DNA of 38,396 bases from a virus. The translations under genes and the position numbers were made by a program. Below the pieces are notes generated by a model, which was not told the DNA's origin, did not search any database, and saw only the letters and a list, made by a program, of their open reading frames with translations. This document shows, in pieces, positions 20,511 to 38,238 of this stretch. Each line of letters opens with the position of its first letter. The stretch's first letter is position 1. The DNA is taken from the IMG/VR virus record IMGVR_UViG_3300002242_000342, positions 1 to 38,396 of that record; one strand, 5' to 3'.

Positions 20511-20539
20511 TTGACGGGGCGTAAGCCCCCTGTTAGTCT
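20511..20539 (+). promoter_or_regulatory. Sigma70-type promoter
   Basis: TTGACG and TAGTCT are 17 bases apart, directly after the metallophosphoesterase gene. The spacer holds a small GGGGC...GCCCC palindrome. Confidence 0.65.
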
Positions 20540-26319: not shown

Positions 26320-26904
26320 ATGACAAAGAAGTATTCAGTGATCTGCGCGGACCCACCCTGGGCATACAAGAGCGCACGCACACTACAGGGGAAGACCAGT
26401 CACCTTACAGCCAAGGCTGGACAGCAGTACAAGACTGTCGGAAGCAAGTCTCTGCATGACATCGGTCGGCACCTGCATCAGGTTGTCGAGGACGACAGCA
26501 TCCTGTTCCTTTGGTGCACAGGGCCGGTATTGGCTGAAGCCATCGACCTCATGGCTGCCTGGGAGTACCCGTACTCACAAGTCGCATTCGTATGGAACAA
26601 GGTCAACGGGAACCCTGGAAGCTACACTCACACGAATTGCGAGTTCGTCCTGGTTGGACGTCGCAACCGGATCCCCAAGCCTTACAAGAGGGCTTCTGCT
26701 CGCCAGTACGTCGAGATTAAGAAGACGGGACACAGCGTTAAGCCAGAGGACATCCAGGACCGCATCGAGAAGATGTTTGGCCGCGAGGACCATGCCCACC
26801 TTGAGCTGTTCGCTAGGCGTCACCGAGAGGGCTGGGAGTGCCTTGGGAACGAGATCAGCGGGAACGACATCCGCCTGGACCTAGATCTGCTTGCTTTAAA
26901 ATAA
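26320..26904 (+). CDS. MT-A70 family adenine methyltransferase
   Basis: The product has 194 residues. The catalytic DPPW is at residues 11-14 (ICADPPWAYKS), where the family has it, and further family blocks follow: LFLWCTGPVLAEA, VAFVWNKVNGN, the KTGHSVKPED segment and HLELFARRHREGWE. These enzymes put a methyl group on the N6 of adenine. Phage members most often methylate DNA, possibly to evade host restriction. The target motif cannot be read from sequence. Start ATG at 26320 with a strong AGGAGGAG. Confidence 0.92.
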   Translation: MTKKYSVICADPPWAYKSARTLQGKTSHLTAKAGQQYKTVGSKSLHDIGRHLHQVVEDDSILFLWCTGPVLAEAIDLMAAWEYPYSQVAFVWNKVNGNPGSYTHTNCEFVLVGRRNRIPKPYKRASARQYVEIKKTGHSVKPEDIQDRIEKMFGREDHAHLELFARRHREGWECLGNEISGNDIRLDLDLLALK

Positions 26905-29507: not shown

Positions 29508-29716
29508 CCAGGACGCTAGTTATACACCACCTTAGGGGCATTACCAGCGAGGAGATTTCGGAGTTCTACCCAAAGGACGGGGTCAGGATCCGCGTCTCGA
29601 TAGACGAAGACGGCCAGTACAACATAGCGAGAACTGGCGCTGGGCTCAAGCCCAAGGTCCGCAAGGCTTATTCAATGAACGAGGCAGCGGACATTGTTGT
29701 ATGGATGTCCATCTAG
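29504..29716 (+). CDS. Hypothetical protein, 70 residues
   Basis: The product is mixed (TRTLVIHHLRGITSEEISEF) with a basic middle (AGLKPKVRKAYSMNEAADIV). Not recognised. Its TAG stop shares CTAG with the stop of the convergent gene, and no terminator is seen between them. Confidence 0.6.
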   Translation: MTRTLVIHHLRGITSEEISEFYPKDGVRIRVSIDEDGQYNIARTGAGLKPKVRKAYSMNEAADIVVWMSI

Positions 29717-30684
29717 CGAATAATTGTTGTCAGCAATGACTTGGGTCTTATTATGACTGGGTTGTCCGCCCTTATTGCAGGAAGCGCAATGGCGTGCACG
29801 TCCTCTTCTGACGCAAAGTATGCGGAGATCATTGGCCTGTTGAGGTAAACCTTCCCAACTGTTCCTGTTCCGTAGAACATTGGGGTAGTTGTTAGGGGGA
29901 ACTCGAAGGTCACGTCAAGTGTCTCCGGATCCCTTGTCGCGAATGTCAGCCCGGTCTCTATGGTTGTGTTTGCTATCTGCGGGATAACCTCGAAGTCGAA
30001 CCTGCACATGAGTAGGTCGCCAGTCCTGCATTCCGAGAAGTCCAGCGTTCCTGTCGATCCGTCAGCCCAACCGGAGAACCCGAAGTTGTATAGACTCGAA
30101 ACACCGTATGGAAGGTGCTGTCCGCCAAAGATCCCAAGGCCGACGTGTGGCAGTGGCGTTGGGGTGCTCCAATATGGAATGTCTGACGAAAGATGAACCT
30201 CGTAGTCAAACTCCAGCTTCATCCACTCACCAGATTCGGCCATCTCGCTGGTGTAGAGTATCCCGTCAGTTCCCTCCCATGCGTAGGATGCGTTCGACAC
30301 GCTGGAGCCAGACCCGTGTTCTGCAGGATCGCTACCTAGCGCTCCCCTGGACACGCCAGTCAACTGGTTTCCAGAAACCGCTCCGTATTCAACGATCTCG
30401 ACGCCGCCAATTATCGCCCTGCCGCCCGATGGATTGAATCCTGCTGAAGAGTCCAGGGTTACTGTTGTTGCCAGTGAGTCAATAGCCATGAACAGTTCCG
30501 TTGACACAGTTGTCTTACCCTTGAATCCTGCGGTGAATTCGTAACCGCCATTTAACCCCGTGTTCTCTGGGGCGGAGTCTTGCCATTGTTGCGTCAGGAG
30601 TTCTGAAAGTTGCTTGTTGTTTAGGGCCGCAGCAATTCGCTGCTTCATATTCTGCGTAAAAATAAAATTGTTCTTCGATGGCAC
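29713..30684 (-). CDS. Tail-tip or fibre-region structural protein, 323 residues, GTG start
   Basis: The N-terminus (MKQRIAAALNNKQLSELLTQ, after a short extra start) matches the N-terminal module of the 137-residue protein at 23314. The rest is strand-rich with many glycines and prolines (ATTVTLDSSAGFNPSGGRAI, DTLDVTFEFPLTTTP-like), and it ends with a strand pair. It lies at the end of the leftward fibre group, so a distal tail role fits. The GTG at 30684 has AAGGAG at the right distance; an internal ATG at MKQR is an alternative. Confidence 0.6.
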   Translation of the reverse strand: MPSKNNFIFTQNMKQRIAAALNNKQLSELLTQQWQDSAPENTGLNGGYEFTAGFKGKTTVSTELFMAIDSLATTVTLDSSAGFNPSGGRAIIGGVEIVEYGAVSGNQLTGVSRGALGSDPAEHGSGSSVSNASYAWEGTDGILYTSEMAESGEWMKLEFDYEVHLSSDIPYWSTPTPLPHVGLGIFGGQHLPYGVSSLYNFGFSGWADGSTGTLDFSECRTGDLLMCRFDFEVIPQIANTTIETGLTFATRDPETLDVTFEFPLTTTPMFYGTGTVGKVYLNRPMISAYFASEEDVHAIALPAIRADNPVIIRPKSLLTTIIR

Positions 30685-30789: not shown

Positions 30790-32601
30790 CTAAATAAAAA
30801 GTCTTACTTCGATCTCCTGCCCGTCCTTGCCTTCAGGCGGTGTTATTGTTACTCCGTCGATGTCGCTGCTCACGCTGTAGTCCCGTGAAATGCGCCCACC
30901 CTCAAGCACTTGCGCAAAGGTACACGTTTCGCCGGGGAACTCGATTGGATCTTGTCCAGAGACGGTGTGCTCTGTCGAAGATATATCCATTGTCTGTCCT
31001 GGTCCCATGACGAATGTGTCGACTAGGTCGTCCTCATCGTCCGGGGAATCCGTCAGAAGCCTGTGCCTGGGGAACCCAAACGCCTGGCTGCCGTTGGAGT
31101 ACACCATCATCTCATCAACACCCGCAGTCAGCATTGAGTATACGTTGAATGCGGAGTCCTGGTGGTTCCAGGCTCCATCAACCTTGACATATACATCAAA
31201 GCCACCATCGCACTGAATGAACACTCCTGGGCCGAAATCGGACGGGTCCATGCCGACGAAGTCTCCGCCCGGCTCATCTTCAGATGTTGGGATGGGTGTG
31301 AAGGTGTAGGATGCCGGCCCGTCTGCCGCGTCAAGGGCTGCGTTTATGGCTTCGAACACGTCTGTGATGATGGTGTTTTCTGAAGCGATGATGTCTTCAA
31401 AGGTAACGACAGAGTCACTAAGTCTACACCAGAAGTGTAGGCCCATTCTGTTCTGCACGTTGAAGTCGTTGGACTCCTCCAGAAGATACCATACCACGCC
31501 ATCTGGGCTGTAGTGTAGCTTGATTGTCGTGTCTCCGATCCTTGAGAACCTATAGTAGCCGAAGAACTGCTGGATTAGCTTGTTGTATGCTTCGTGGGCT
31601 TCATCATTTTCTATTGATCCGCCAGAGTACGGTGAGCCGATTGTGCCCAGAAAGTCAACAAGCCCATTCCGGCTGCTGACGGTTGAGTGCTCCCAGTGTG
31701 CGGCAACCACACGCTTGGGCCACCATGGCAACCCCCAGACCTCCTGTCCGTCGTACACACCCAGAACTGATTCGCCACCCACCTCGATGCCGTGCCAGCC
31801 TGGAGCGCCTTCGTAATTTCCGGAGAACACATCAAACACGAGGTCGTGCCAACTGTACCCTGGTCCTTCGTTTCTCATGAATCCAAGATTAAAGAACTGC
31901 TGTGATTCTGCGTTGTCGAGCGAGTCGGGCTCGTACTCTTGAAGAACAATGGCGATCTGCTCTACGGCAAATCCGTCGTCGACCCGCGTCGGCTCGCCTT
32001 CGTCATGCCCTTTACCGGCATTTGGCCCAAAGTTCCAGCCAGACAGCTTAAACACTATCGAGCCGCCGGGGCCGACGTCCGGAAGCTCTGCTTTAAAGTT
32101 TGGCGAGTCACCGTCACCAACCAGTAAGCTGGTGGAGACGATCAGTTGCTCGTTGTCGTTGTCTATAGTATATGAATTTGGAGGACCAAACTCGTCAAAG
32201 TCGATGTCGAAACCGGGCGCGTCCTGCAGCTCTCCTTCCGCATCGATTGATGCTTCCCAGAGATCAAGGTAGTGGTACACAGGCTCTACAACCTCGCCGG
32301 CCTCTAGCGTGAAACTTCCGCTTGCGCCAACGCCAGTTGATGCCGCAAGTTCCTCTCCCGTGTCTGTTCTAACCATTGAGAAAGAGGACTCTTCAATCCA
32401 GCTTCCCTCTCCGAAAGACCAAGTGTACTCAACTCCTGATTCAAGGTTGAATACGTCAGATCCGCTGGCACCCGCTTCAAGCGTGTGGGCGGCGATCTGA
32501 ATGTTCTCTTCGTTGATGTTTTGGTAGATTCTGACCCACTGTCCCTGCCAGCCATCACCATATGTGTCGTTTTCTATAATTTCAATTTGTACTTGGGGCA
32601 T
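30790..32601 (-). CDS. Tail fibre-like protein, 603 residues
   Basis: This is a large acidic, strand-rich protein. Residues 1-110 begin QIEIIENDTYGDGWQGQWV, a D-Y-G-D-G-W type loop seen in calcium-binding beta domains of surface proteins. Then follow a long beta-rich part with many aromatic and glycine residues (KLSGWNFGPNAGKGHDEGEP, IGDTTIKLHYSPDGVVWYLL) like a concanavalin-type carbohydrate-binding fold, and a C-terminal strand domain. It probably reads a host surface sugar or protein. The start at 32601 follows AGGAG. A hairpin without a U-run precedes it. Confidence 0.65.
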   Translation of the reverse strand: MPQVQIEIIENDTYGDGWQGQWVRIYQNINEENIQIAAHTLEAGASGSDVFNLESGVEYTWSFGEGSWIEESSFSMVRTDTGEELAASTGVGASGSFTLEAGEVVEPVYHYLDLWEASIDAEGELQDAPGFDIDFDEFGPPNSYTIDNDNEQLIVSTSLLVGDGDSPNFKAELPDVGPGGSIVFKLSGWNFGPNAGKGHDEGEPTRVDDGFAVEQIAIVLQEYEPDSLDNAESQQFFNLGFMRNEGPGYSWHDLVFDVFSGNYEGAPGWHGIEVGGESVLGVYDGQEVWGLPWWPKRVVAAHWEHSTVSSRNGLVDFLGTIGSPYSGGSIENDEAHEAYNKLIQQFFGYYRFSRIGDTTIKLHYSPDGVVWYLLEESNDFNVQNRMGLHFWCRLSDSVVTFEDIIASENTIITDVFEAINAALDAADGPASYTFTPIPTSEDEPGGDFVGMDPSDFGPGVFIQCDGGFDVYVKVDGAWNHQDSAFNVYSMLTAGVDEMMVYSNGSQAFGFPRHRLLTDSPDDEDDLVDTFVMGPGQTMDISSTEHTVSGQDPIEFPGETCTFAQVLEGGRISRDYSVSSDIDGVTITPPEGKDGQEIEVRLFI

Positions 32602-32655: not shown

Positions 32656-34578
32656 TTAGCAGATTGACCAGCTTCCGTCACCATTGGAAATCAATGACAA
32701 CATGGCGTAATCGAAAGAGATGGAGAATCCAGCGGAGCCATCGATGACACCGCCAATAACAGACACCGGACTTGCGGTGAATCCTGTCCCGAGAGCCTTG
32801 ATCTCGACCTTTCTTCCGGCTACTGCGCCAGCAGGAAGGTTTACAGTGGAGCCAGTGGCTGCTGCAACATGGTAGCTGGTAGCGCCCATGTCCAGTGACG
32901 CGCCGGAACCGACTAACTCGTAAGAGTACACCACTGGAACGGTAGCAAAACTTCCGCCAGCCATGGCGTCAAGGTTTGCTGAATACGCTTGAGTATCGCT
33001 TCCGATTGCGTGGGAGTCCTTCCAGCCATCAAGATCAGACTGGATAGCGGCTTCAGCGGCCTCGGCCCGAGCAGTTTCTGCGGCCACGGCGTCAGAAGAA
33101 GCCTCACCAAGCGCCTCAATGTCTGACTGAAGCGAAGCAACGTCAGCGTTGTGTGTCGCCAGCAGGTTGTTCACTGCCGTTGTCACAACTCCGTCAGCGC
33201 TTTCAAACGCTTCGATGACTTCCGTGATTGAATCCACAAACTCCGGGTCGATGTTGCTAAGAACGCTGTCGACCCGAGCATCGATAGCAGCCTCTGCGGA
33301 CAGTGCTCTAGCAGCCTCTGCGGCCAACGCAGCGTCGTTATTTGCAACGTAGGCAGCAAGTGCAGCATCTGTTGCTGCATCAGCCTCTGATCTTGTGGTT
33401 GCTTCAGCAGCCAAGTCGTCAGCAACGTCGTTTAGCGCGCCAGCCAGGACATCGTCCGCTGCGGTGCGCAGTGCCGCTTCGCTCTCGTCCGCAGCCTGTC
33501 TAGCTGCAGCTTCGTCAGAAACAGCGGTAGTCAGAACGCCCTCGGCGTCGGTCGCCCTATTTGTTTCGGCTAAAATTGCGGATGCGTTTGCTGCTTCCGC
33601 AAGCTGTGCTCGCGTGGCTTCTGCGGCGATAGCGTCAGCATTAACACCGTCTGCAGCCTCGTAAGCGGTTTGCATATCGCCCATGTCGCTCGCAAAGGCT
33701 TCGTCTGCCGCTACTCTGGCTGCAGATTCCGCAGCGATTGCGTCTCCAAGGTCGGAATCGGCGGACTCAAGGGCTGTAACAGCGTCGTCTAGTTCGGAGG
33801 AAACGCCATCTATGGCCGATTGAAGCGCATCGTCAGCACCTTCTGATTCCTGCGATAATTCCGCTAATTGCGAAGATAATGCAGCGTCTCCGGCCTGACT
33901 TGCAGCGTCTAGTTCCGCAACAAGGCTGAAGTAGTCCGCCTGAATGGCGGCATCTGCGGCAGTAAGTGCCGTTACTGCAGCGTTAAGCTCTGAAGTGTGT
34001 GTGCCCATGACGGTCGTGATTGCTTCCGAGAGGTCATCGTCGGCGTCTTGGAAGGCAGCGACGACTTCCGTCAGTGAGTCGAGTGCGCTTGGGTCGACGT
34101 TAGAGATGATGTCGTTGATCATCGCCTCCAGTTCGTCGTCCTTTGCTGTGCGCGCTGATGCTTCTGCCTCAACCGATGCAGATCGTGCTGCTGATTCGGC
34201 TGCGATTGCAGCGGAAAGAACATCGTCTGCCGCGTCTCTAGCTGCTGCCTCTGCAGCATCACCTGCAGCCATGGACTCAAGGATCGCCGCTTCTGCGGCA
34301 AGCGCCCGAGCCTCTTCGTCTGCAACGAGGCCAAGTGCTGCTACGTTGAGTGCGTCTACATATAGCTTGTTTGTTAAGTGTCCATCACTAGATGGAGCTG
34401 CGCTTGAGGAGGCAACAAAGTCTCCCAGCGCCAATTCTGCTGTTACCTGAAGTCTGTGAAGCTCCATTAATCCTTCAAGGGATTGGTGGTGCTGTCCTAC
34501 GGAATCTTCAGAGATCCTTCCATCAGCAAACTCGCCTGAAACTGCGAGTGCTGCATCGTGTCCTAAGTTAAATGACAT
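32656..34578 (-). CDS. Coiled-coil tail fibre with C-terminal tip domain, 640 residues
   Basis: Residues about 90-540 are an alanine-rich coiled coil (AAEAAARDAADD, AIAAESAARSASVEAE) in long heptad runs, as in trimeric fibre shafts. A block near residue 160 (SNVDPSALDSLTEVVAAFQD) returns near residue 460 (SNIDPEFVDSITEVIEAFES), an internal duplication. The last ~110 residues form a compact tip domain (STVNLPAGAVAGRKVEIKAL, then VIDGSAGF, ending SWSIC) shared with the protein at 34618. The N-terminal ~60 residues probably attach to the tail. Start ATG at 34578 after AAGGAT. Confidence 0.8.
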   Translation of the reverse strand: MSFNLGHDAALAVSGEFADGRISEDSVGQHHQSLEGLMELHRLQVTAELALGDFVASSSAAPSSDGHLTNKLYVDALNVAALGLVADEEARALAAEAAILESMAAGDAAEAAARDAADDVLSAAIAAESAARSASVEAEASARTAKDDELEAMINDIISNVDPSALDSLTEVVAAFQDADDDLSEAITTVMGTHTSELNAAVTALTAADAAIQADYFSLVAELDAASQAGDAALSSQLAELSQESEGADDALQSAIDGVSSELDDAVTALESADSDLGDAIAAESAARVAADEAFASDMGDMQTAYEAADGVNADAIAAEATRAQLAEAANASAILAETNRATDAEGVLTTAVSDEAAARQAADESEAALRTAADDVLAGALNDVADDLAAEATTRSEADAATDAALAAYVANNDAALAAEAARALSAEAAIDARVDSVLSNIDPEFVDSITEVIEAFESADGVVTTAVNNLLATHNADVASLQSDIEALGEASSDAVAAETARAEAAEAAIQSDLDGWKDSHAIGSDTQAYSANLDAMAGGSFATVPVVYSYELVGSGASLDMGATSYHVAAATGSTVNLPAGAVAGRKVEIKALGTGFTASPVSVIGGVIDGSAGFSISFDYAMLSLISNGDGSWSIC

Positions 34579-35318: not shown

Positions 35319-35822
35319 TTGAAATACTTATTACCAACATTATTATTAGTAGCGGCTTGTGGTGAACCAGAAGTCGTAGAAGTTATCGTCGAGAAAGAAG
35401 TGATCGTAGAAAAGGAAGTCATCGTTGAAGTCGAGGCTAAATTCGAGTGCACAAGCACTGGCGTTGTAGCATCGGCATACCACAGCGGCGAGAACGACCA
35501 TGGTGAGCCAGAGATCACCCTGGACGTCAGCCTTCTCATGTGCAACACCAAAGAAGGTACTATGAACAAGGTCAACGTGTACTACTGGGACATGCTTGAC
35601 GCACCCGACATTATGGTTGATGGAGACAGCGACAAGATCGAAATCGTTGCATCATACGTCTACTACGGTCAACCTGAAGATCAGCCACTTGTGCAGTTGC
35701 CTCGCATGTTCATCGAGCAGTGCCAAAAGGGCGCGGCGTTCGACACCGAGTGGGAATGCGGAGGGTTGACAGTCAACGAAGGGATTCAGGTTGTACTTGG
35801 CGAAGTGGTTCTGGAGGAATAA
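35319..35822 (+). CDS. Lipoprotein with a valine-glutamate-lysine repeat, 167 residues, TTG start
   Basis: The N-terminus (KYLLPTLLLVAAC) is a signal peptide with a lipobox LVAAC, so the protein should be lipid-anchored after cleavage before Cys14. Directly after come near-identical short repeats (VEVIVEKEVIVEKEVIVEVE), likely an extended strand or coiled linker. The remaining ~120 residues are a soluble acidic domain with several cysteines (SLLMCNTKEG, FIEQCQKGAA, EWECGG). It could act in superinfection exclusion or lysis from the outer membrane; that is inference. The start is TTG at 35319 after AAGGGGG. Confidence 0.75.
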   Translation: MKYLLPTLLLVAACGEPEVVEVIVEKEVIVEKEVIVEVEAKFECTSTGVVASAYHSGENDHGEPEITLDVSLLMCNTKEGTMNKVNVYYWDMLDAPDIMVDGDSDKIEIVASYVYYGQPEDQPLVQLPRMFIEQCQKGAAFDTEWECGGLTVNEGIQVVLGEVVLEE

Positions 35823-36067
35823 TGAACTATCTTGATAAATTCAGCAAACTTAGCCACGATGCGCTTCAGAAGTCGGCAGACGACGCAGCAATGCACAGGT
35901 TTGAACTTGAGAATCTCGACATGCAGATGTTGAACAGCCCGCACAAGTTCACCGACCGGGAGCAGACCGAGCTTCAGGAAGTGCTGGAACTCGTCATCAC
36001 ACTTGAGAACGAGATCCATGCGGAAATCCAGGGTCGAGAAGCCAGGAGACAACGTCAGTGGCTCTAA
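35822..36067 (+). CDS. Hypothetical helical protein, 81 residues
   Basis: TAATG ties it to the lipoprotein stop, with GGAGG upstream. Helical with charged heptads (REQTELQEVLELVITLENEI). Not recognised. Confidence 0.65.
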   Translation: MNYLDKFSKLSHDALQKSADDAAMHRFELENLDMQMLNSPHKFTDREQTELQEVLELVITLENEIHAEIQGREARRQRQWL

Positions 36068-36075
36068 TAGAGAAG

Positions 36076-36222
36076 ATGATGTTTACGGGGGTGACCAGGA
36101 TACTGGCGCCCATCGTGATTATCTTGGCCATGGCCTATTTTCTGGCGCGTTGCGAGATCGCATATTGGGGTCACGTAAGAAAGTCAAAGAAAACACTTGA
36201 CTCACCTAGCGACGATGGCTAG
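36076..36222 (+). CDS. Small membrane protein, 48 residues
   Basis: One hydrophobic span (ILAPIVIILAMAYFLA) with a basic, then polar C-terminus (HVRKSKKTLDSPSDDG). The ribosome site (AGAGAAG) is weak; a second ATG follows at once. The next promoter overlaps its 3' end. Function unknown. Confidence 0.45.
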   Translation: MMFTGVTRILAPIVIILAMAYFLARCEIAYWGHVRKSKKTLDSPSDDG

Positions 36223-36225
36223 TTT
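36197..36225 (+). promoter_or_regulatory. Sigma70-type promoter
   Basis: TTGACT and TAGTTT are 17 bases apart. Confidence 0.65.
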
Positions 36226-36242
36226 ATTGGTGGGAGGATAGA

Positions 36243-36476
36243 ATGGCACCAGAAATACTAGGCTTTAGGGTCATGAGGCGATCCGAACTGGATATGCTCA
36301 CGTCACTTGTCAAGCTGATGTCAATACCAGACATGAAAGAACTACTGGAAGAGATTGAGAAAGAGACAAGGGTGTTTGAGATGACGGGGGACAAGGCTGC
36401 AGTGGAATTTTTGTACGACGTAGAGTCGCTTGTGTTGGCCGAATACTGGTCACGGGGGTTAGTAAAGACAAAATGA
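36243..36476 (+). CDS. Hypothetical helical protein, 77 residues
   Basis: Start after GGGAGGATAGA. Helical with charged repeats (DMKELLEEIEKETRVFEMTG). Not recognised. It overlaps the next start by four bases. Confidence 0.65.
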   Translation: MAPEILGFRVMRRSELDMLTSLVKLMSIPDMKELLEEIEKETRVFEMTGDKAAVEFLYDVESLVLAEYWSRGLVKTK

Positions 36477-36670
36477 TTAGCGAAACGACCAGACAACTAG
36501 CGCTGCTAGACGAAGAAATCAAAAGTTTGCGGAACCAACTAGCGTCCATGGCCGGATTACGGCAAGCGGCGATACGAAAGACCCGCGAACACATCCAAGA
36601 CGCCATGTTTGTGCTTGAGGAAGAGAAATTAGAGGTTCTGTGGGAGGAACAAGATGGTATTGATAGCTAA
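36473..36670 (+). CDS. Hypothetical coiled-coil protein, 65 residues
   Basis: ATGA overlap with the previous stop. Nearly all of it is predicted coiled coil (LALLDEEIKSLRNQLASMAG, EEEKLEVLWEEQDG). Not recognised. Confidence 0.6.
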   Translation: MISETTRQLALLDEEIKSLRNQLASMAGLRQAAIRKTREHIQDAMFVLEEEKLEVLWEEQDGIDS

Positions 36671-36884
36671 ACACGAAGAATACGGGGAAATTACAGCGTC
36701 TAACGCGGGTGCTGTGGCTGTATTTCTGGGTGTAGACTACTATAAGGTGGTAGAATGCGCAAACAAGGGTCTTAGCATCCAGGGTTGGGCGCTAAATTGG
36801 GACGATGACTTGCCAGAGGAGTTCCCAGACGACGATGACACCATGGACCTGGACGACGAAGAGTCCTGGAATAGAAAAATATAA
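36654..36884 (+). CDS. Hypothetical protein with acidic tail, 76 residues
   Basis: The front (EYGEITASNAGAVAVFLGVD) looks like a small helix-turn-helix or winged segment, and the last 30 residues are very acidic (DDDLPEEFPDDDDTMDLDDE), which could mimic DNA. Function unknown. Start after GGAGG, overlapping the coiled-coil gene. Confidence 0.6.
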   Translation: MVLIAKHEEYGEITASNAGAVAVFLGVDYYKVVECANKGLSIQGWALNWDDDLPEEFPDDDDTMDLDDEESWNRKI

Positions 36885-36892
36885 GAAACTTG

Positions 36893-36921
36893 TTGCGCGG
36901 GGGCGATCCCCTGCCTACTAT
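36893..36921 (+). promoter_or_regulatory. Weak sigma70-type promoter
   Basis: TTGCGC and TACTAT are 17 bases apart. Confidence 0.5.
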
Positions 36922-36946
36922 ATTGGTGTAACGAAGGAGACACACC

Positions 36947-37324
36947 ATGGAAATCAAAACTAAATGTAACAAGTGTGACGGAAGCGGAATCATCAGAGCG
37001 TTCATGCACATCCAGAATGGCCAGTGTTTCTCTTGCAAGGGTAAAGGTCACTTCGTTACGACCGAGGCTAAAGAGGCTCGCAAGGCTAAGCGCAAGGCTG
37101 CTAAGAAAGCAGAAATCGAGGCACGCGCTCTTGAGTATACCGCTAAGTCTGACGCGCTGGTTGCCAAGTACGCAAACGACGCACGGATTGGACCAGAGCG
37201 CAAGGCCATGTGTGAGAAGCACGACTGCGTGGCCCGTGAAACAGCGGAAATACTGCACAAGTGGGACTCAACACCGGGTTGGGCAGACAAATACCACTGG
37301 ATTGCGCGGAATCTCGCAAGATAA
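36947..37324 (+). CDS. DnaJ-type zinc-finger protein, 125 residues
   Basis: The first 36 residues carry CNKCDGSG (Cys7, Cys10) and CFSCKGKG (Cys27, Cys30), the two CxxCxGxG halves of one DnaJ-type zinc centre. A long basic helix (EARKAKRKAAKKAEIEARAL) and a final helical part follow. No J domain is present, so it is not a full co-chaperone. Start at 36947 after AAGGAGACACACC. Confidence 0.8.
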   Translation: MEIKTKCNKCDGSGIIRAFMHIQNGQCFSCKGKGHFVTTEAKEARKAKRKAAKKAEIEARALEYTAKSDALVAKYANDARIGPERKAMCEKHDCVARETAEILHKWDSTPGWADKYHWIARNLAR

Positions 37325-37326
37325 TC

Positions 37327-37355
37327 TTGACAAGGCAGTAACTGATGCCTACATT
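37327..37355 (+). promoter_or_regulatory. Sigma70-type promoter
   Basis: TTGACA and TACATT are 17 bases apart. Confidence 0.75.
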
Positions 37356-37376
37356 ATAGGCATAACAGGAGAAATC

Positions 37377-37571
37377 ATGGAAACGCAAGCATTATACGGA
37401 CAAGAGTCATACGAAGAATACACATTTTTCGCAACACGCCAAAAAGCGGTGGAGTACGTTATCGCAATGGAAGGGGAATGTCGCGGCAAGCGCGTATCTT
37501 GGCCTAAGCAGTCGCACTGGGGCGATTGGTTTACAATTAATCGGGTTTCTTACAAGCCCACGTGGAGGTAA
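37377..37571 (+). CDS. Hypothetical protein, 64 residues
   Basis: Start after AGGAGAAATC. Aromatic-rich (GQESYEEYTFFATRQKAVEY, SHWGDWFTINRV). Not recognised. GGAGG for the next microprotein lies at its stop codon. Confidence 0.6.
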   Translation: METQALYGQESYEEYTFFATRQKAVEYVIAMEGECRGKRVSWPKQSHWGDWFTINRVSYKPTWR

Positions 37572-37573
37572 TT

Positions 37574-37660
37574 ATGGAAAAGAGAATGAACAATGCAGTG
37601 CTGGCTTGCTGGCTTTGGGCGCTAACGTGGTGCGGATTGATCCACACTGGGGTCTTGTAA
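37574..37660 (+). CDS. Membrane microprotein, 28 residues, upstream of the Mrr-like nuclease
   Basis: A strong GGAGGTAATT precedes the ATG. It has a basic start (MEKRMNN) and one hydrophobic, tryptophan-rich stretch (AVLACWLWALTWCGLI). The TAATG overlap with the nuclease gene makes the two a coupled pair. Function unknown; a partner or regulator of the nuclease is plausible. Confidence 0.6.
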   Translation: MEKRMNNAVLACWLWALTWCGLIHTGVL

Positions 37661-38238
37661 TGAGTAAAGAATTCGTGGTGGCTGCACTGGTAATAATGAT
37701 GGTGGTATTCCCGATGGCGATAGGCATCGCAACAGGAAACGCTGAAGACGTGGTGGAAGTGATTGCAGGGTCGGTGCCCTGTGTCCTCTTGTTCCTGGCC
37801 TTCTCTGGCCTGATGGTCTGGCTATTCAGCACATTCACAAGGGACGAGCGTCGTGAGGTGGAAGTCACCAGAGAATACGCAGCCCAGGGCTACACGCCAG
37901 GGATGTGCGGGCACAAGTACGAGCACTTCGTGGCTGCTCAATTGCGGAACTTCGGGTGGAGCGCACACGTGACACAGGGTTCAGGAGACCAGGGAGTGGA
38001 CATAATAGCACGCAAGGGGCTGTTCGTTATGGCTGTGCAGTGCAAGCGTTATGCAAGCAACGTGGGCAACAAGGCTGTCCAGGAAGTATTCGCGGGTGCT
38101 AGTTTCATTGACGCTGACTTGGCTGTTGTGGTCACGGATTCCGGGTACACACAGAGTGCAAGGACGTTGGCCAACAAGCTGGGTGTCAAGTTGGCCCACC
38201 ATTCACAAATTGGCAGTTTTAAGATAGTGGTTGAGTAG
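37660..38238 (+). CDS. Membrane-anchored Mrr-like restriction endonuclease
   Basis: The product has 192 residues. Two hydrophobic segments (about 5-25 and 34-58) come first, then a cytoplasmic Mrr-type nuclease domain (about 80-192): Glu88 in KYEHFVAAQL, Asp114 in GDQGVDIIA and Gln127-Cys-Lys129 in AVQCKRY give the E, D and QxK of that fold, followed by LAVVVTDSGYTQSA, a standard Mrr segment. These enzymes cut DNA; membrane anchoring suggests action on DNA at entry, for example against rival phages, though this is inference. The start is at 37660 through coupling with the microprotein. Confidence 0.85.
   Translation: MSKEFVVAALVIMMVVFPMAIGIATGNAEDVVEVIAGSVPCVLLFLAFSGLMVWLFSTFTRDERREVEVTREYAAQGYTPGMCGHKYEHFVAAQLRNFGWSAHVTQGSGDQGVDIIARKGLFVMAVQCKRYASNVGNKAVQEVFAGASFIDADLAVVVTDSGYTQSARTLANKLGVKLAHHSQIGSFKIVVE

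Follow-up and report, generated by a model that had tools for sequence, protein, structure and literature searches.

A phage-borne, predicted membrane-tethered Mrr-type nuclease that may act on foreign DNA, and the short reading frame overlapping its start

We found that a tailed phage encodes a 192-residue protein which, as judged from its sequence and a structural model, combines two N-terminal membrane helices with a C-terminal PD-(D/E)XK nuclease domain bearing an intact active site. The gene (37660..38238, + strand) lies in a window, i.e. the whole stretch of DNA analysed here, which takes up positions 1-38396 of an IMG/VR virus record of 39,153 bp; immediately past the window the record has Ns. 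This record is a fragment of a tailed phage and codes for a tape measure, neck, major capsid and portal proteins, a large terminase, a metallophosphoesterase and a protein with an MT-A70 methyltransferase domain. By analogy with known systems we tentatively propose, with a probability of about 0.4, that the gene is an accessory one of the phage and its product a standalone Mrr-type endonuclease, tethered to the membrane, which would cut foreign DNA at the inner membrane following a logic similar to that of the SNIPE defence protein.

The Pfam scan recovered a match to the Mrr_cat family (PF04471) over residues 82-183 (E=2.1e-21), with a score of 76.6 bits against a curated cut-off of 21. In an alignment of 22 natural sequences, each of which also matches Mrr_cat on its own, the residues E88, D114 and Q127-x-K129 are invariant and intact in the phage protein, just as the first-pass annotation had read the E, D and QxK residues. 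Ahead of this domain are two hydrophobic segments, starting at residues 5 and 35 with 19-residue Kyte-Doolittle means of 2.79 and 2.21, which span about residues 5-23 and 35-57 and are followed by a charged linker. An AlphaFold model built from the 22-sequence alignment (mean pLDDT 88) has helices at residues 3-25 and 28-76; the two membrane segments that had been noticed before the nuclease domain are thus seen both in hydropathy and in the modeled helices. A lysine precedes the first segment, the loop between the two is acidic and an arginine-rich stretch follows the second. This distribution of charges suggests that both ends of the protein are cytoplasmic, which would place the nuclease on the inner face of the inner membrane. 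An alternative start codon for the gene, TTG at 37606, was ruled out as its context lacks a Shine-Dalgarno (SD) sequence.

To place the gene in its phage context we searched for related contigs. Searches with the portal and tail proteins led to two contigs, and those with TerL and with a 125-residue zinc-finger protein encoded next to the nuclease recovered no phage relatives. In the relative G001 (59,283 bp) the structural genes occur in the same order and most of them are 50-92% identical. No gene follows the nuclease within the window; it closes a cluster of small + strand genes (35319..37324, or 35319-38238 with the nuclease included), which is divergent from the tail genes and was not found in G001; at the corresponding position G001 instead encodes a ParB-like protein, an endolysin-like peptidoglycan-binding protein and a helicase on the opposite strand. 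Searching G001 with the nuclease, Mrr_cat and the 125-residue neighbor gave no match, and none of the neighboring small genes was found there either. Hence, the nuclease looks like an accessory gene that is likely to be absent from the G001 phage, the completeness of either contig not being established. The same qualification applies to the finding that neither contig contains a detectable tyrosine integrase. Elsewhere in the window an ORF at 26320-26904 (+) encodes an MT-A70 type adenine methyltransferase domain (PF05063, E=3.8e-19), possibly marking phage DNA. Among the tail-region genes, the proteins encoded at 29713-30684 and 32656-34578 (-) are 86% and 92% identical to their G001 counterparts, and the one encoded between them at 30790-32601 (-) aligns over only 208 of its 603 residues, with 54% identity, suggesting the exchange of a variable, perhaps receptor-binding, region.

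Comparisons of the nuclease model with the PDB recovered AF1548, MspJI and AspBHI (the latter two being modification-dependent nucleases) and Hjc resolvases among the best matches, and the viral proteins that match it best are for the most part from phages, either unnamed or named restriction endonuclease. PADLOC profiles matched by the protein include PDC-S02, the ZorD nuclease domain and type IV mREases; a sequence search of the PDB returned no meaningful relative and NCBIfam no match. Holliday junction resolvases have a similar fold, one relative matches the Hjc family and the phage nuclease itself (P0001) weakly matches a RusA-like PHROG, so it could be argued that the protein serves phage DNA metabolism at the membrane, in recombination, repair or the processing of branched DNA. 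We consider this unlikely: the closest families are restriction nucleases, and the gene was not found in the related contig, whose replication and recombination genes occur without it.

A genome scan for relatives of the nuclease recovered at least 80 loci. The first-pass annotation had suggested that this could be a module not described before; for the nuclease layout this did not hold up, as the combination of two helices and Mrr_cat, in proteins of about 190-206 residues, is also found as a single gene on the chromosomes of Paracoccus and Lacticaseibacillus. In particular, the Paracoccus proteins (L009, L011-L015) and a protein from a deep-sea alphaproteobacterial MAG (L016) share the order and size of the phage protein, with two transmembrane segments, a basic linker and a C-terminal Mrr_cat domain in 191-206 residues (the 248-residue Paracoccus frame, L013, being longer only through the start chosen). 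They are 34-40% identical to it over the full alignment and 48-51% in the nuclease domain. These copies differ from the phage version in being chromosomal single genes, beside housekeeping genes where the neighborhood was read, and in lacking an upstream micro-ORF: in two Paracoccus species the gene is flanked by prfA/prmC on one side and by a speB-like gene on the other, and in two others its neighbors, as read by eye, resemble sugar transporter or other metabolic genes. Lacticaseibacillus has two-helix versions, and Clostridia and gut phages have both one- and two-helix versions. These proteins (e.g. L008, L065, L070, L088 and that of Roseburia phage Jekyll) likewise combine N-terminal transmembrane segment(s) with Mrr_cat and the same catalytic residues, albeit some with zinc-ribbon or winged-helix-like inserts and none with a coupled hydrophobic peptide. 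Among plasmids the nuclease domain was detected in 229 records, in none of which did a single place cover 80% of the query. Thus, as far as can be read from sequence comparisons, membrane-tethered Mrr_cat proteins are a widespread and common kind of protein, of which the present one is a phage-borne member. We found no experiment on any close homolog. The occurrence of same-layout proteins on bacterial chromosomes, together with the accessory location of the gene in a variable cluster of small genes, would also be compatible with an acquired bacterial gene that has little or no function in the phage. This is very doubtful, in that the catalytic residues, both transmembrane segments and the start signals are all intact, and a phage gene of no use would generally be expected to decay.

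Of the characterized systems, the nearest in logic is SNIPE (PD-lambda-1), a nuclease anchored in the inner membrane with a cytoplasmic catalytic domain, which cuts phage DNA during injection and, when deprived of its transmembrane region, is toxic through cleavage of host DNA, such that tethering prevents self-cleavage (PMC13190303). The phage protein resembles it in being a predicted inner-membrane-anchored nuclease whose catalytic domain would face the cytoplasm, with cutting at DNA entry attributed to it by analogy. The two are built of different parts: SNIPE combines a GIY-YIG nuclease with DUF4041, which binds DNA and probably tape measure proteins, whereas the phage protein has a PD-(D/E)XK domain of the Mrr type, and the Pfam scan found neither DUF4041 nor GIY-YIG in it; hence it is not SNIPE. 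A second precedent is COG4741, in which an N-terminal membrane helix precedes a minimal PD-(D/E)XK core, and for which a role as a "membrane-associated guardian against foreign DNA" was proposed in 2005 (PMC1189080). It differs from the phage nuclease in having one helix and in belonging to another PD-(D/E)XK subfamily, closest to YraN, with the motif E-(V/I)D-E(V/I)K rather than QxK. Escherichia coli Mrr and the type IV modification-dependent enzymes share with the phage protein both Mrr_cat and the E-D-QxK active site; however, the Pfam scan detected no separate DNA-binding domain beside Mrr_cat, residues 1-81 being accounted for by the transmembrane segments and linker, and the phage nuclease is therefore not a classical type IV enzyme of the Mrr kind, as far as its domain composition indicates. 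The relationship to Zorya is confined to the match to the ZorD nuclease domain; the neighboring genes on this incomplete contig are small ORFs with no matches to the motor proteins ZorAB.

SNIPE (PMC13190303) and the proposal for COG4741 (PMC1189080) make it plausible, by analogy, that the phage nuclease acts against incoming DNA. Under such a scenario it would be made from its own promoter, held on the cytoplasmic side of the inner membrane, and would cut incoming foreign DNA as it enters there, thereby protecting the infected cell from competing phages, with the tether keeping the enzyme off other DNA. Several observations speak against this reading: the closest homologs with the same layout, among the matches listed, stand singly amid housekeeping genes (prmC/prfA/speB; a sugar-transporter operon), and those that were read are not in evident defence islands; the nuclease lacks DUF4041, the DNA-binding part of SNIPE; and the fold to which it belongs also serves recombination and repair. 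The same enzyme might alternatively degrade host DNA, for takeover of the cell or nucleotide scavenging, with phage DNA spared, perhaps via adenine methylation by the MT-A70 protein encoded on the same contig (26320-26904), and the lack of a detected tyrosine integrase in either contig would fit a virulent lifestyle. Yet an enzyme for general chromosome breakdown would be poorly served by a membrane tether, and in SNIPE the tether prevents self-cleavage; moreover, the same-layout homologs sit on the chromosomes of growing bacteria and the methyltransferase gene is 11 kb away from the nuclease, making such a role quite unlikely.

Directly upstream of the nuclease is a micro-ORF (37574..37660, +) encoding a hydrophobic, tryptophan-containing peptide of 28 residues, MEKRMNNAVLACWLWALTWCGLIHTGVL, 3/28 of which are tryptophan. 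The two ORFs, which together occupy 37574-38238, are real and had been correctly placed at first pass, as had the overlap between them: the TAA of the micro-ORF (37658-37660) has one base in common with the ATG of the nuclease (37660), forming TAATG. With a best 15-residue hydropathy mean of 1.91 the product is predicted to be a membrane peptide. Its SD sequence, GGAGGT, has a calculated duplex energy of -10.6 kcal/mol and is among the strongest of the neighborhood (-7.4 to -10.7 kcal/mol for the neighboring genes); that of the nuclease, at -5.4 kcal/mol, is the weakest. In a post hoc test, devised after the ORF had been seen, we generated 20,000 dinucleotide-preserving shuffles of the stretch upstream of the nuclease: 34% of them contained an ORF of 15-36 codons whose end coincides with the nuclease start, 0.8% one that also had a strong SD, and 0.04% one with a hydrophobic core in addition. 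The micro-ORF is thus unlikely to have arisen by chance alone. It is probably translated, bringing ribosomes to the nuclease start, and is most simply understood as a translated leader that couples the translation of the nuclease to its own; because the SD of the nuclease is weak, the ribosome leaving the micro-ORF would re-initiate at TAATG to translate it. An attenuator of the trp type, which might be thought of for a tryptophan-rich leader, was rejected since the overlap of its stop with the next start leaves no room for a terminator.

Translation of the micro-ORF does not in itself make the peptide functional, and its pairing with the nuclease is an orphan arrangement seen once. The first-pass annotation had gone further in suggesting that the two could form an anti-phage module: translational coupling to the short ORF is indeed made probable by the SD strengths and the overlap, whereas the notion of a peptide-nuclease module found no support. 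A tblastn search of 50,697 phage records for homologs of the peptide gave one 11-residue match (E=2), taken as chance, and neither PHROGs nor Pfam contained a relative. A degenerate DNA scan of IMG/VR for WLWALTW gave 28 matches, with none of the 28 followed by an Mrr gene. Among 69 tabulated short Mrr_cat ORFs, two of which are the present locus, no other is overlapped at its start by a short hydrophobic ORF of this kind; SD-bearing ORFs upstream of other Mrr_cat genes are few, and they are hydrophilic, lie inside much larger frames, or differ in start or position. The search for the pair in other genomes that had been proposed at first pass thus recovered no other phage or homolog with it in the collections searched, and such a lack of conserved linkage was one of two outcomes named there as speaking against the module. 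Accordingly, it is improbable that the peptide is a specific partner of the nuclease (an inhibitor, activator or targeting subunit) in a superinfection-exclusion pair: the TAATG overlap, strong SD and hydrophobic core, found together in just 0.04% of shuffles, would favor such a pair, but the peptide has no relatives in the phage records or IMG/VR, homologous nuclease genes have no comparable upstream ORF, and a translation-coupling leader accounts for the layout. The fuller version, in which a dedicated 28-residue membrane peptide controls or targets the nuclease so that it cuts the DNA of competitors at injection, as a SNIPE-like defence made of different parts, is very improbable.

The micro-ORF is itself preceded by an ORF of 64 residues (37377..37571, +) for which we found no relatives; its stop lies 2 bases before the micro-ORF ATG, and it is likely to be the first gene of a transcript shared with the micro-ORF and the nuclease. 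Ahead of all three is a sigma-70-like promoter (37327..37355, +; TTGACA-17-TACATT), recognized by a 10/12 consensus match only, whose spacer contains the inverted repeat AGGCA..TGCCT. Promoter-like + strand sites with an inverted repeat that lies within the spacer or surrounds it (e.g. GGGG..CCCC, AGGCA..TGCCT or GCGGGC..GCCCGC) occur at 20511, 28798, 36893 and 37327 in the window and at 38987 in G000. They follow the pattern TTGNNN-17-TANNNT or TACNNN, and several lie ahead of a small gene or cassette. One strict form of the promoter and repeat pattern was seen 3 times, whereas 60 first-order Markov resamples gave 0.33 on average and never more than 2; G001 showed no excess (1 versus 0.45). 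The sites may be operators bound by a phage regulator. The cluster opens with an ORF of 167 residues (35319-35822, +) that is lipoprotein-like, with a lipobox-like LVAAC followed by repeated VEVIVEKEVIVEKEVIVEVE, and has no family match; since phage lipoproteins are known superinfection-exclusion factors, it is a candidate for such a function. The cluster also encodes a second small membrane ORF of 54 residues (36058-36222, +; GTG start, SD AGGAG) and the above-mentioned 125-residue protein (36947-37324, +), which has a DnaJ/anti-TRAP-like double CxxC zinc motif and matches several PHROGs of unknown function.

Two-helix Mrr_cat proteins are present on several bacterial chromosomes, with no tested function found for them. 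A phage copy under a putative promoter of its own offers a small system in which to test the idea that such a nuclease guards the membrane; were the outcome positive, the entry-cutting logic of SNIPE would extend to a large, so far untested protein family.
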